Shown here piece after piece: positions 5,907-64,000 of a DNA stretch of 64,000 nt. Below the pieces are notes generated by a model. The model had not been told where the DNA came from and made no database searches. It was given only the letters and a program-made list of their open reading frames with translations. A program made the position numbers and the translations under genes. This DNA comes from an uncultured Bacteroidales bacterium (GTDB taxonomy: Bacteria > Bacteroidota > Bacteroidia > Bacteroidales > P3), in contig CAJOIV010000001.1 of NCBI GenBank assembly GCA_905234665.1, forward strand, positions 31,150 through 95,149. The letters run 5' to 3'. Position 1 is the stretch's first letter, and each line of letters opens with the position of its first letter.

Positions 5907-7115
5907 ATGGAATCCATCAAGAAGATATACAAGCGGGGCTACGGCCCTTCGAGCAGCCACACGATGGGGCCCCACAGGGCCGCGGAGCTCTTCAAGGGAA
6001 GGGCGCCACAGGCTGTGCGCTACCGCGTGACGCTCTACGGCTCACTCGCCGCCACCGGCAAGGGACACCACACAGACATGGCCATCCGCCGCGGCCTCGC
6101 GCCCACGGATGTGGAGATTGTGTGGAAGCCCGACATCGTCAAGCCTTTCCACCCCAACGGGATGCTTTTCGAAGCACTGGACGCCGACGGCAACACAATG
6201 AAAGACTGGCTGGTGTACAGCATCGGCGGCGGCGACCTCTCTACTGAGAAGGGTCTCGTTCCGATAGATATACCTGCCAGCGGGTTCCCCGTCTACCCCC
6301 ACAACACCATGACCGAAGTCATGGAATACATGGCGAAAGAAGGCCTCGGTTTCTGGGAGTATGTAGAGCGTCACGAGGATGAGAGCCTGTGGGACTACCT
6401 CGAAGCCATGTGGCAGCAGATGCAGCTGACCATCGAGGCCGGACTGCAGAACGACCGCGTCATCCCCGGCGGCCTGCACCTGCGCAGCAAAGCACACCAA
6501 TACTATATCCGCGCCTCGGCATTCAAGCCTTCCCTCCAGAGCCGCGCGCTGGTGGCCGCCTATGCCCTCGCCACCAGCGAGGAGAACGCCTACGGCGGCA
6601 TGATTGTCACCGCACCCACCTGTGGCTCGTCGGGCGTGCTCCCCGCCGTGCTCTACCACCTGAAGAAAGCCCACAACTTCAGCGACACAGAGATACTCCG
6701 CGCCATGGCTACAGCGGGCATCTTCGCCAACGTCATCAAGTCCCTGGCCTCCATCTCGGGTGCCGAAGTGGGCTGCCAAGGTGAGGTGGGTAGCGCCTGC
6801 GTGATGGCCGCCGTGGCCGCCAACCAACTCTTCGGCGGGAGCCCCCAGCAGATAGAATACGCCGCCGAGATGGCCATGGAGCACAACCTGGGCCTGACCT
6901 GCGACCCGATGTGCGGACTTGTCCAGATTCCCTGCATCGAACGCAATGCCATGGCCGCCCTCCGCGCCCTCGACATCAACATCTACGCCATGATGAGCGA
7001 CGGCAAGCACATCATCTCTTTCGACAAGGTGGTGCGCACCATGAACCGCACCGGCAAGGACCTCCCCAGCCTCTACCGCGAGACCTCGATGGGCGGCCTG
7101 GCCGTGGATAATTGA
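5907..7115 (+). CDS. sdaA: L-serine ammonia-lyase, single-chain iron-sulfur type
   Basis: The 402-residue [4Fe-4S] enzyme deaminates L-serine to pyruvate and ammonia. It starts at MESIKKIYKRG; the signature GPSSSHTMGPHRAAE lies at residues about 13-27. Cysteines for the cluster are in TAPTCGSSGVLPAV and CDPMCGLVQIPC. N-terminal (beta) and C-terminal (alpha) domains are fused as in the bacterial one-subunit enzymes. The track's longer ORF would start upstream of the promoter. The stop codon TGA lies inside an inserted aattgagaattg repeat, so the natural C-terminus may once have been slightly different. Confidence 0.92.
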   Translation: MESIKKIYKRGYGPSSSHTMGPHRAAELFKGRAPQAVRYRVTLYGSLAATGKGHHTDMAIRRGLAPTDVEIVWKPDIVKPFHPNGMLFEALDADGNTMKDWLVYSIGGGDLSTEKGLVPIDIPASGFPVYPHNTMTEVMEYMAKEGLGFWEYVERHEDESLWDYLEAMWQQMQLTIEAGLQNDRVIPGGLHLRSKAHQYYIRASAFKPSLQSRALVAAYALATSEENAYGGMIVTAPTCGSSGVLPAVLYHLKKAHNFSDTEILRAMATAGIFANVIKSLASISGAEVGCQGEVGSACVMAAVAANQLFGGSPQQIEYAAEMAMEHNLGLTCDPMCGLVQIPCIERNAMAALRALDINIYAMMSDGKHIISFDKVVRTMNRTGKDLPSLYRETSMGGLAVDN

Positions 7116-7242
7116 GAATTGGAAAATGAGAATTGAAAATTGAAACCCGCGATAGCCACTCCTCCCCTAAGTTAGGGGAGGTGCCCCAAAGGGGCGGAGG
7201 AGTGTGTTAAGAACTAAGAATTAAGAGCTAAGAAGTAAGATA
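7113..7242 (+). repeat. post-stop repeat and three-hairpin element, copy 2
   Basis: After the sdaA stop come units of ttgagaattggaaaatgagaattgaaaattg, then at 7155-7207 the structured element: outer stem CACTCCT/AGGAGTG, first hairpin identical to copy 1, second hairpin GCCCC-AAA-GGGGC. Compared with copy 1 (GCCC-GAA-GGGC), the second stem is one pair longer with both sides changed together, which supports real base pairing. Further heptamers (aagaactaagaattaagagctaag) follow, up to the next gene. Confidence 0.75.
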
Positions 7243-7794: not shown

Positions 7795-7847
7795 AAAAGG
7801 ATCAACCCTCAACCTAATTCCTCATTTCTCATTCCTAATTCCTAATT

Positions 7848-8579
7848 ATGAAACACTCCCTCCCCCTTTTAGCTTTTAGTTTTTACCTTTTAGTTTCCCT
7901 GTCCTCCTGCACCACCAAGGAGCCTGCCCCCGAGCCCTTCAACCTCAACGGCACCTGCTGGACCGACGGCTACGAATTCTTCGTCGGACAGCCCGACACC
8001 ATCACCAACGACAGCACTCTCCTCCTCTTCATCGGAGGCAACCTCCACGAAGGGGGCTACGGATTCGCCCTGCAGCGCCTCTCGGCCGACACCTTCCTCA
8101 TCCGGGCCATCCCCGGCTCGCCCATGGTGGCCGTGGGCATGGAGGGTGACACCGCCACCCTCGACAGCCTCGCCAGCGGACGCATCCTCGTGTGCCACCG
8201 CCCCAACGATCCGGAATGCGACACCCTCGAGATGTACGACCCCGGCGACATGACGCCCTACGACGCCTTCGCACGCATCATCCTCCAGAAACGCCTCGAC
8301 GACCTGAAAGGCATCTACACTGACGCCAAGAGCGGCATGACCTTCGAGTTCGCCGACACCCTCTTCATCCGCACTCCCAGCAACGGCAAGGCCGACACCG
8401 CCACCTTCCACATCTTCTATTCTTTCGACATGCCGACCCACGCCCTCATCCTCTCCTCGGGCGAGAAGCTCTGGTATGAAAAGACCGCCGTCGGCCTCGA
8501 CCTCTTCACCGCCAAATACTGGATTGCCGAGGAAGATTACTCCCAGGACAAGCCCCTCTACCGCCTCACACGGCAGTAA
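7848..8579 (+). CDS. lipoprotein of unknown function
   Basis: The 243-residue product has a type II signal peptide with lipobox LSSC at residues 18-21, followed by TTKEPAPEP, so it should be lipidated and exported. The mature protein is beta-rich and acidic, with many Asp and Thr. No domain is recognised. The signal-peptide codons are built from the sequence cttttagcttttagtttttaccttttag, the same simple-repeat type found in the intergenic spacers at 24.55 and 63.66 kb, and the start codon directly follows cctaattcctaatt units. The 5' end of this gene therefore overlaps repeat DNA. Confidence 0.75.
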   Translation: MKHSLPLLAFSFYLLVSLSSCTTKEPAPEPFNLNGTCWTDGYEFFVGQPDTITNDSTLLLFIGGNLHEGGYGFALQRLSADTFLIRAIPGSPMVAVGMEGDTATLDSLASGRILVCHRPNDPECDTLEMYDPGDMTPYDAFARIILQKRLDDLKGIYTDAKSGMTFEFADTLFIRTPSNGKADTATFHIFYSFDMPTHALILSSGEKLWYEKTAVGLDLFTAKYWIAEEDYSQDKPLYRLTRQ

Positions 8580-13030: not shown

Positions 13031-13996
13031 TTACTTTATTCCCATTTTTTTCATCATCATTCTGTTTGTAAGAGTAAAAAGGATTTCATTGAGTTTTGCA
13101 AAATCGTTTTTATCGTCCGTAATGATAAAATTCAAATGAGATTGCTCAAATAGCCGCCGTAATTCAACATCCATTTCCCGTATTCTTTGCTTGATTGCCA
13201 ACTGTGATTGATTGTCCTTTGTTACGATAGTAATGTTTTGCTTGCTTGTTTCCTCGATAGCTCTTCCAGTGGAAAGTTCCTTTAAATATCTTTCAAAATA
13301 TATAAAATCGATGCTACCAAATGACAACCCAAAGAAAATGATATCATTTGCATTTTCTAATGAATTATTGATGTCATGATGCGGATAATGACGGTTCGAC
13401 GTTTTATGCAACCATTCATATCCTGTAGGCAATGGTGTTTCATCTACACCTAAAATAATAGAACTATTTGATAGTTCTCCATGTAAATGCTGACAATGCA
13501 TTTCTTGGTACTGACCTATTAATTTGCTAAAATAGTTTATGTCCGTATAGTTAAAGGAATAAACCATATCAAAACAGTTCGCCCTTAATATCGAAGCAGC
13601 GCAACATTCATTTTTTATTGTGTTTATAGAATTTTTCTGCGCCTCTTCAATGAATTTCTGCAATCCTGATTGGAGATTGTTAAAATAGATTTCATCTTCT
13701 TTTGCTGTGCTAAATGTATTATTGACTGCAATATTGGCTGCAAAGTTCAATAATTCTTTTTCCAAATCAAACCAAGCATTTTCTTCTAATACCATAGTTC
13801 GAATTGTTTCTATATAGTCTTTCATACAAATGTTATGGGGTTCTTCACCTAAATCAAGAATCCCATTTTTTGAAATTGGGAGTTTGTTGAACTCCACATG
13901 TGGCCAACAATTGGATTTCGCAAAGTCGGAATATTTAGTTTTAAGACCTAAATCCAAATCAAATCCATTTCCAATGACAAGTATTGAATTACTCAT
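13031..13996 (-). CDS. AbiH-family protein (phage abortive-infection family)
   Basis: The 321-residue protein begins MSNSILVIGNGFDLDLGLKTKYSDF, the N-terminal hallmark of the AbiH family (ILVIGNGFDLxxGxxTxYxDF). Other family traits are HLHGELSNSSIILGVDE in the middle and IIFFGLSFGSIDFIYFERYL towards the C-terminus. AbiH was named for lactococcal phage abortive infection; the mechanism is unknown. The ORF track's extra 11 N-terminal residues were dropped because the motif normally starts within a few residues of the Met. The gene is AT-rich and transcribed against the island's other genes, so it is probably an independent unit. Confidence 0.85.
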   Translation of the reverse strand: MSNSILVIGNGFDLDLGLKTKYSDFAKSNCWPHVEFNKLPISKNGILDLGEEPHNICMKDYIETIRTMVLEENAWFDLEKELLNFAANIAVNNTFSTAKEDEIYFNNLQSGLQKFIEEAQKNSINTIKNECCAASILRANCFDMVYSFNYTDINYFSKLIGQYQEMHCQHLHGELSNSSIILGVDETPLPTGYEWLHKTSNRHYPHHDINNSLENANDIIFFGLSFGSIDFIYFERYLKELSTGRAIEETSKQNITIVTKDNQSQLAIKQRIREMDVELRRLFEQSHLNFIITDDKNDFAKLNEILFTLTNRMMMKKMGIK

Positions 13997-14655: not shown

Positions 14656-16593
<1,938 letters not shown>

Positions 16594-29596: not shown

Positions 29597-29813
29597 TTCG
29601 GTGTGGCTTTTATGTTCCTTTTTCCATCCTTTTACTCTTATCTTGCACATACCCAACACTTTTCCCACACTTCTCCTAAGGTACGTTAGAGAAGTGTTAG
29701 AGAAGTGTTAGAGAAACGTTAGAGAAGGACCGAAAGAACAGCGAAGGAACACAAGCGTCACATAAGAACCACACCGAAACCGCCCCCTGCCACCACCCAT
29801 GTCGCCGTGTGAC
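29597..29813. repeat. 11-bp-unit inverted-repeat array, long form, copy A
   Basis: The gene-free 29383-29901 region contains a left pyrimidine-rich arm and a right purine-rich arm ending in TTCGGTGTGG (29597-29606) and CCACACCGAA (29769-29778). Inside, successive 11-mers can be read: cacttttccca, cacttctccta, then cgttagagaag, tgttagagaag, tgttagagaaa, cgttagagaag, gaccgaaagaa, cagcgaaggaa, cacaagcgtca, cataagaacca. A tail with GTCGC-CGT-GTGAC (29801-29813) follows. The right arm and tail are shared with 63699-63906, including aagcgtcacataag and ccacaccgaa. Confidence 0.85.
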
Positions 29814-62020: not shown

Positions 62021-63547
62021 TTATTCCCACTCAATCGTTGCCGGGGGTTTGGAACTGATGTCGTACACCACGCGGTTGACCCCCTTGACGCGGTTGATGA
62101 TGTCGTTGGACACCTTGGCCAGGAAGTCGTAGGGCAGGTGGCTCCAGTCGGCGGTCATGCCGTCGACCGACTCCACGGCCCGCAGCGCGACGACGCTCTC
62201 ATAGGTGCGTTCGTCGCCCATCACGCCTACCGACTGAACCGGCAGCAGCATACAGCCTGCCTGCCACACCTTGTCGTACAAGCCGTAGTCGCGCAAGCCC
62301 TGCACAAAGATGTCGTCGACCTCCTGCAGGATACGCACCTTCTCGGGCGTGACATCGCTCAGTATGCGGATGGCCAGACCGGGACCCGGGAACGGATGCC
62401 GCCCGATAAGCTCGGGGGCGATGCCCAGCTGTCGGCCCACACGGCGCACCTCGTCCTTGAAAAGACTGCGCAGCGGTTCGACCAACTGCAACTTCATATA
62501 GTCGGGCAGGCCGCCCACGTTGTGGTGCGACTTGATGGTCTGCGACGGGCCCTTGACCGAACTGGACTCAATCACATCGGGATATATCGTGCCCTGGCCA
62601 AGCCATTTGGCATCGGTAATCTGTTTGGCCTCGGCATCGAAGACATCGATAAAGGTCTTGCCGATGGCTTTGCGTTTCTTCTCGGGGTCGGTCACGCCGG
62701 CCAGCACGCTGTAGAAACGCTCCTTGGCATCCACCCCTTTCACGTTCAGCCCCATGCCCTGGTAGGACTTGAGCACATTCTCGAACTCGTTCTTGCGCAA
62801 CAACCCGTTGTCCACAAAGATGCAGTGCAGCCGATGGCCAATGGCTTTGTTGAGCAACACGGCGGCCACGGTGGAGTCCACACCGCCCGAAAGGCCCAAC
62901 ACCACCTTGTCGTCACCCACTTTCTCACGCAGGGCGGCCACGGTGGTCTCGACAAACGACTCGGGAGTCCACGACTGGTCGCAGCCGCAGATGTCCACCA
63001 CGAAATTGCGCAGCAGCTGCAGGCCGTCGACCGAGTGGTGCACCTCGGGATGAAACTGGATGGCATAGGTAGGTTCGCCCTCGATTTGGTAGCCGGCATA
63101 GCGCACACTGGCCGTGGAGCAGATGCAGCGGTACCCCTCGGGTACACGCTCGATGGTGTCGCCGTGGCTCATCCACACCTGGCTGCCTACGGGGACCCCT
63201 TTCATCAGCGGGTTTGCGGCATCGACAAACTGGAGGTTGGCACGGCCGTACTCGCGCGTGCCGCTCTGCTGCACACTGCCGCCGCCATACTTGGCCAGAT
63301 ACTGTGCCCCATAACACACCGCCAGCAATGGCAGACGCCCCTTGATGCCACTCATGTCGGGCACCGGCGCGTCGGGCGCGTTACAACTATAGGGGCTGCC
63401 CGAAAAAACAACGCCCTTCACCTCCTCGGTGAGGGCGGGAATCTTGTTAAACGGGTGTATTTCGCAATAAACATTGAGTTCGCGTATCTTGCGTGCGATA
63501 AGCTGAGTGTACTGAGAACCAAAGTCTAAAATGATAATAGTATCCAT
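62021..63547 (-). CDS. guaA: GMP synthase (glutamine-hydrolysing)
   Basis: The 508-residue two-domain enzyme converts XMP to GMP. The N-terminal glutamine amidotransferase has nucleophile Cys in [16 protein letters not shown] and His/Glu in QFHPEVHHS. The ATP-pyrophosphatase loop is [16 protein letters not shown], and the C-terminal dimerisation domain ends [18 protein letters not shown], the family's typical terminus. The length is normal. Confidence 0.96.
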
Positions 63548-63570
63548 AGCAGTAGGTGCTTAATAAATGG

Positions 63571-63578
63571 CAAAGATA
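63571..63578 (-). promoter_or_regulatory. -7 element of guaA
   Basis: Minus-strand TATCTTTG, 23 bp from the guaA ATG; the upstream -33 box is not clear. Confidence 0.6.
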
Positions 63579-63698
63579 CGCAAAAAAATCGATATATTTA
63601 GAAATATATAAAATAAAAATATCGTTATGAGTGATTAGTGACTCGTTATTTTTTAGTTTTTACATTTTAGTTTTTAGTTTTAATCTTCTCCTAGTCGT

Positions 63699-63906
63699 CT
63701 CTCGGTGTTCCTTTTATGATCTTTCTTCCTTCCTTCGGTACTTACCCTGCTGATATTCAACTGTTCTCCCACTGTTCTCCTATCCTACGTTGGAGAACAG
63801 TTGGAGAACAGTAGGGAAACAGTTGGAGAACAACCGAAGGAACACCGAAAGAACATAAGCGTCACATAAGGACCACACCGAAGTCACTCCCTTGTCACCC
63901 TGTGAC
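63699..63906. repeat. 11-bp-unit inverted-repeat array, long form, copy B
   Basis: The gene-free 63548-64000 region carries, from 63699, a pyrimidine-rich arm and a purine-rich arm readable as 11-mers: tattcaactgt, tctcccactgt, tctcctatcct, acgttggagaa, cagttggagaa, cagtagggaaa, cagttggagaa, caaccgaagga, acaccgaaaga, acataagcgtc, acataaggacc, acaccgaagtc. A tail with GTCAC-CCT-GTGAC (63894-63906) follows. Units differ in sequence from copy A, but the period, arm polarity, right-end block and tail are the same. Confidence 0.85.
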
Positions 63907-63920
63907 CAAAATGTTAAAAA

Positions 63921-63952
63921 TTTGCAAGATTGAAGAATTCTGCGTACTTTTG
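63921..63952 (+). promoter_or_regulatory. consensus promoter for a gene beyond the window
   Basis: TTTG (63921-63924) and TACTTTTG (63945-63952) are spaced by 20 bp. No start codon follows before the window end, so the driven gene lies outside. Confidence 0.75.
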
Positions 63953-64000
63953 CAAAAATTTTTTCTCCCACACGCATCAATAATTTTATTACCCCAAAAA

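Follow-up and report, generated by a model that had tools for sequence, protein, structure and literature searches.

What is the long array of 11-bp units that lies beside guaA in an uncultured Bacteroidales bacterium? We examined this array, which we call copy B, in a window of 64,000 nucleotides (the whole stretch of DNA that was analyzed). The window comes from a 2.67-Mb draft genome (G000) that is 90.5% complete, with 5.6% contamination. The features that we refer to are:

63699–63906, no strand: copy B, family F4 (core unit GTTGGAGAACA), an imperfect inverted repeat with its arms on an 11-bp lattice
63760–63780, minus strand: inner left arm of copy B, two inverted units (ACTGTTCTCCC and ACTGTTCTCC), from the TRF row at 63760–63780 and inverted repeats
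63789–63832, plus strand: inner right arm of copy B, four core units (GTTGGAGAACA), one of them degenerate (TRF period 11, 4.0 copies; spacing 11, 11, and 11)
63833–63893, plus strand: outer right arm of copy B, diverged units (ACCGAAGGAAC, ACCGAAAGAAC, ATAAGCGTCAC, ATAAGGACCAC, and ACCGAAGTCAC) on the same lattice, with a shift-11 match of 0.57 by itself
63894–63906, no strand: tail of copy B, GTCAC-N3-GTGAC, common to copy A, by direct reading; a small separate stem (5 bp in the fold)
63921–63952, plus strand: Bacteroidetes-type −33/−7 promoter (TTTG at 63921–63924 and TACTTTTG at 63945–63952), facing off the contig, by direct reading
62021–63547, minus strand: guaA, the divergent neighbor of copy B (Pfam GMP_synt_C and GATase)
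29602–29795, no strand: copy A, the second F4 element (core unit GTTAGAGAAGT), 76% identical to copy B
2383–2487, no strand: an element of family F1 (units CGAAGAACAAT and CGAAGAACAAA; about 30 copies in the genome), which includes the array at 2394–2481 and lies between rpoD (minus) and ffh (plus)

From 63789 onward, the right arm of copy B reads GTTGGAGAACA twice, then GTAGGGAAACA, GTTGGAGAACA, ACCGAAGGAAC, ACCGAAAGAAC, ATAAGCGTCAC, ATAAGGACCAC, ACCGAAGTCAC, and TCCCTTGTCAC, and each of these units is 11 bp long. At a shift of 11, the self-match of the whole element is 0.53, versus 0.25 for shuffled sequence, and none of 2000 shuffles reached this value. The remaining shifts from 5 to 23 give 0.40 or less. 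(The outer left arm by itself has a weaker shift-11 match of 40%, with p = 0.11.) The inverted arms (63714–63780 and 63792–63858) are 75% complementary, and the element folds as one hairpin of about 190 nt, with z = −8.5 as DNA and z = −9.1 as RNA; no shuffled sequence was equally stable. The original prediction that copy B is an array of 11-bp units is borne out by the shift-11 match and by the hairpin. As it also claimed, copies A and B share a right-end block (they align at 76% identity over 194 bases), the tail fits GTCRC-N3-GTGAC, the internal units of the two copies differ (TTGGAGAACAG in B versus TTAGAGAAGTG in A), and a promoter lies just downstream of copy B. (The promoter call uses the general consensus for Bacteroidetes promoters.) Its grouping of the array at 2394–2481 with A and B was mistaken: that array belongs to the separate, roughly 30-copy family F1, while A and B, which share the same plan, are the only two copies of F4 that we found in the 2.67-Mb assembly.

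All three of these arrays lie between divergent genes. Besides rpoD and ffh for the F1 element, the neighbors are a deoxynucleoside kinase gene (minus) and a large gene of unknown function (plus) for copy A. For copy B, guaA has a −7-type box (TATCTTTG) on the minus strand near 63570–63577, by direct reading. On the other side, the contig ends at window position 64000, and the gene of the plus-strand promoter falls off the contig. Judging from a second guaA locus in the assembly, this gene would be a homolog of bamD (YfiO). The second guaA (contig C6, 106159–107682) is 92% identical to the guaA in the window, which is on contig C1, and the arrays upstream of the two genes belong to F1 and F4, respectively. 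With two guaA genes that have different array families, and with this level of contamination, the bin could contain DNA from two related species.

Family F1 is dispersed across the genome. We found 52 forward and 54 reverse matches to its unit, and none in either orientation for a reversed control pattern. These matches form about 30 inverted elements, of which we inspected 25–26 as sequence. The genome contains additional families as well, with units such as TATAACTATAA and TTTGACATAAG. Intergenic arrays with a 7-bp period (AATTGAG, TTAGGAA, GTTCTTA, and similar) are found at 1355–1389, 7110–7145, 7207–7240, 7813–7847, 7866–7896, and 63646–63681 in the window and at many other loci. These 7-bp arrays outnumber the 11-bp arrays in G000 and in another species of the genus (G007). 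Other Bacteroidetes genera also have them, but more sparsely, and there are none in 100 kb of G029.

We looked for perfect tandem duplications in the non-coding DNA of seven species. Arrays with period 11 are abundant in the non-coding DNA of all of the species that we sampled from this uncultured genus, and periods 10 and 12 are no more frequent than expected by chance. In G029 (97% complete and very rich in 11-bp arrays), there were 110 duplications at period 11 and none at periods 10 or 12. The corresponding counts were 20, 1, and 0 (periods 11, 10, and 12) in G000, and 2, 6, and 0 in 885 kb from other Bacteroidetes genera. Except for 7-bp arrays and units of very few bases, no period other than 11 stands out, and the other Bacteroidetes genera lack the 11-bp arrays.

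The spelling of the units is specific to each species. Units include TCGAAGAACAA and TTGAGTAGGAG in G029, AAATGCAAACT-like units in G072, TACAAGTACTG in G025, GTAGGGAGTTG in G007, CTGTAACGATG in G021 and G027, and ACTGAACAACG in RGIG3262 (G091). For the RGIG3262 unit, we counted 263 and 277 matches in RGIG3262 itself, compared with zero in five other genomes that we tested. An F1-like pattern has 350 and 327 matches in G029 and is missing from most other species. At the divergent guaA/bamD region, many species have arrays with unrelated units, and several species have no array. We found no motif that is common to all units. (AAC is present in 17 of 42 unit families, versus 10.3 expected, which is too weak.) The claim that 11-bp phase and arm polarity are kept while the units drift is supported, and the phase holds across the genus even though the units are unrelated. 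Separately, a leader-like motif recurs shortly 5' of start codons at several loci in the genus (L010 around 13036–13064, L013 around 16245–16275, L005 around 1766–1792, and L195 near 1690): GCACAATAAA is followed by a short GC-rich segment and then by CGTTA or GTTAC.

How do individual elements vary? In 26 F1 elements, the distance from the inverted to the forward unit is 27, 38, or 49, and in 28 G029 elements, it is 27 or 16, so that arm spacing is 5 modulo 11 in all 54 measurable elements of the two families. A caveat is that this agreement is partly due to shared descent of the copies; still, no copy is off the lattice. Also, between G021 and G027, which are 92% identical, one array differs in length by exactly 11 bp. 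(The spectrum of indel lengths for this pair of genomes contains just two 11-bp events, and one of them is inside a period-7 region.) The spacings and the 11-bp difference agree with the expectation that unit number changes by whole 11-bp steps.

The expectation that the arms change together failed. Among 27 aligned G029 elements, the two arms of an element are alike at 50.6 of 66 positions on average, versus 51.8 of 66 for arms from different elements, and 99% of permutations gave a value at least as high as that observed. The arms of one element are, if anything, slightly less alike than arms across elements, and we reject co-evolution of the arms. In one G021/G027 pair of elements, the change is confined to the right arm. 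Variant units in the G029 elements (CGGACATCAAT and CGGAGAAC, at set places) occur on one arm and, barring rare exceptions, are absent from the opposite arm. These one-sided variants fit descent from a polar master copy and count against selection for base-pairing. The units of the arms are nearly identical near the dyad and ever more diverged outward: the 27 aligned elements have a conserved core that decays outward in 11-bp steps, with no sharp edge. This is unlike a classical transposon and leaves room for homogenization from the center by conversion. In a second G029 family (for instance at L219:262 and L221:15511), many copies have in common, in addition to the inverted 11-bp units, a one-sided outer block (CTGATTTACAG ... 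TTACCCCCTGC) that partly resembles the outer arm in family 1.

Do these arrays belong to a known kind of element? REPs are 20–40 bp long, with stems of 5–13 bp and a GTAG or CGTC tag (PMC3733652). Like the elements of REP/REPIN and RAYT (TnpA-REP) systems (PMC3116915, PMC2817692, PMC3733652), the arrays are high-copy, intergenic, palindromic, species-specific, and non-coding, with inverted pairs predominating. But the elements here are about 100–200 bp long, their arms consist of tandem 11-bp units, and no tag is shared across families. Copy B in particular is about 190 nt, with arms of about 50–90 bp, instead of a single 20–40-bp stem-loop. Instead of an unpaired tag, CGTC is found only in family 1 of G029, where it is paired with GACG; it is not common to F1, F4, or the G072 family. 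As for RAYTs, we found no matches to the Y1 transposases (Y1_Tnp, PF01797) in G029 or in G016 and two in G000, with no relation to the number of arrays. Because the elements are too long and have no common tag, and because the nearly complete and array-rich G029 lacks Y1 transposases, we do not count them as REPs, and we reject the idea that they are REPs driven by a RAYT.

Other dispersed, imperfect palindromes in intergenic DNA include BIMEs, ERIC, and the pneumococcal BOX elements, and the internal modules of BOX vary in number. We know of no BIME, ERIC, or BOX element that is entirely an 11-bp lattice of inverted polarity and is spelled differently in each species. ParR/parC-type centromeres have 11-bp direct repeats, one per turn, that are read by an assembling protein. 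The likeness is only in how they work, as arrays of 11-bp sites: parC is a single plasmid locus by parM/parR, while here there are dozens to hundreds of chromosomal arrays. Heptamer direct-repeat arrays of TAACTGA are found in Beggiatoaceae, Cyanobacteria, and some Bacteroidetes (PMC4679880). These also consist of short, tandem, intergenic units and are patchy among lineages. However, their period is 7 bp instead of 11, they have one fixed spelling, and they are direct repeats that immediately precede start codons (PMC4679880), in contrast to dyads between promoters.

The original prediction also held that the arrays are unlike ordinary transposon remnants, and this stands only in part. MITEs would have defined terminal inverted repeats and target-site duplications; we saw no such duplications in comparisons at species distance and no sharp edge in the 27 aligned elements. 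On the other hand, near-identical, dispersed copies do resemble mobile elements. An origin from phages or plasmids can be rejected: no similar DNA was found in the phages and plasmids that we searched, and three F1-like matches in viral contigs are single coding coincidences, with no arrays. We also reject intrinsic terminators, as the arrays are mostly between divergent genes and no T-run follows the stems that we inspected. An Rfam search of the window and of loci L219 and L220 found only tRNAs and no other known structured RNA. In open-licence papers, we found no account of arrays like these from Bacteroidales, which is weak evidence of novelty. Apparently, copy B belongs to a large and previously undescribed set of interspersed palindromic repeats.

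We think it somewhat probable that copy B is a member of a genus-wide set of non-coding, dispersed, REPIN-like palindromic repeats, which spread from polar master copies, change length by 11-bp slippage, and are retained between divergent promoters. Each species would have one or more families, whose members are inverted repeats of 11-bp units. Copies would spread within a genome from a polar master, as REPINs or MITEs do, by a putative mobilizing activity that acts in trans. The number of units would shift by slippage, in whole 11-bp steps. Copies would then persist chiefly where two divergent promoters leave the DNA between them untranscribed, so that a strong hairpin would harm neither an mRNA nor a promoter; elsewhere, they would be selected against if transcribed. 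The 11 bp may correspond to about one helical turn that is read by a bound protein. We infer mobility from the dispersal of the copies and from their presence and absence at orthologous sites. For instance, a divergent region has an array in G001, but its orthologs have none in G070 and G009, with both neighboring genes conserved, or in G002 and G036, with conservation of the downstream gene. We identified no mobilizing gene, Y1 transposases are absent from G029, and about 106 kb of G021/G027 alignment contained no clean insertion or empty site. An ortholog-wise test of array position between G000 and G072 had only 3 comparable regions. (At G021:C47 around 48362, G027 has a wholly different hairpin at the orthologous site: TTGATATG, a heptamer hairpin, versus AATGCGTCCGTATG...CATACGGACGCATT.)

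The main rival is that the arrays serve the host between divergent promoters. They could be topological or insulating elements, such as a cruciform that absorbs the negative supercoils generated between these promoters. Or, they could be platforms for a nucleoid protein, whose subunits would each take up 11 bp (about one turn) along one face of the DNA, separating the two promoters. The location of the arrays speaks for this. (For comparisons of location, we used our own hexamer-scored gene predictions.) In G029, 25 of 38 divergent intergenic regions of at least 80 bp contain an array, or two thirds, versus 19 of 102 other regions (Fisher p = 2.7e-7). With the length of the arrays subtracted, 25 of 44 arrays are in the divergent 29% of intergenic bases (p = 1.2e-4). 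Every recognizable −7 box in G029 is on the gene side of its array, so the arrays are upstream of all of the detected promoters. For F1 in the window's genome, 12 of 24 elements are in divergent regions, which account for 22% of intergenic bases (p = 0.0025). The strong hairpin, and the retention of period 11 but not of sequence, would also fit a host element. However, density is far lower in unbiased samples from G072 (7/77 divergent regions versus 11/252 others) and G000 (4/25 versus 8/83). The bias in these two genomes is in the same direction yet weak, so a strong preference for divergent regions is established for G029 and F1 only. Arrays are also present in convergent and tandem regions, and several species lack an array at guaA/bamD. 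Finally, the arms do not covary, so pairing itself does not appear to be selected. We consider a host function rather unlikely.

Another possibility is that geometry, and not sequence, is inherited: species of the genus would keep an inverted 11-bp lattice between divergent promoters, and each would respell the unit across its genome. The cause would be a genus-specific protein or machinery that reads helical phase and the dyad and either co-evolves with the spelling or ignores it. We are doubtful of this.

Alternatively, a peculiarity of replication or repair in this genus might generate 11-bp tandem duplications and fold-back copies in non-coding DNA, with no need for selection or mobility. 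This would account for a period that is common to families with unrelated units, for changes of exactly 11 bp, and for one-armed arrays, for example in G001. It does not explain how one polar master was dispersed to dozens of unrelated sites per genome, nor the enrichment between divergent genes, and we judge it quite unlikely. Concerted evolution, in which arrays keep their positions and ectopic conversion from the hairpin tip replaces only their core units across the genome, would fit the peak of identity at the dyad and its outward decay. It would also fit family F4, which has new core units within older-looking outer units, and the differing units at guaA/bamD in many species; but some orthologous regions have no array at all, and this explanation seems very unlikely. 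That the arrays act as RNA (as a terminator, attenuator, or small RNA, with the unit being one turn of an A-form stem, which has 11 bp per turn) is highly improbable despite the stable RNA fold (z = −9.1), as they are commonest between divergent genes and upstream of detected promoters, where the transcript of neither gene would include them, match no Rfam family, and have no compensatory changes across their arms.

Our preferred explanation, of REPIN-like repeats that spread from polar masters, leaves unexplained why all of these unrelated families use 11 bp. One possibility is an ancestral 11-bp lattice of which only the spelling has drifted; the other is some factor that reads this period or produces it.

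The arrays may also affect genome assembly. The window's contig stops soon after copy B, and in RGIG3262, many contigs have their start within hairpin arrays. These repeats appear to break assemblies of rumen Bacteroidales, which matters for the quality of metagenome-assembled genomes.

The usual definition of an interspersed palindromic repeat in bacteria rests on a conserved sequence together with a transposase. In these arrays, what is constant is a number, 11 bp, and the sequence of the unit turns over between species. In one genome (G029), two of every three spaces between divergent genes contain an element. Whatever enforces the 11 bp, be it a mobilizing enzyme, a nucleoid protein that reads phase, or a quirk of replication, would be new and could be tested directly.
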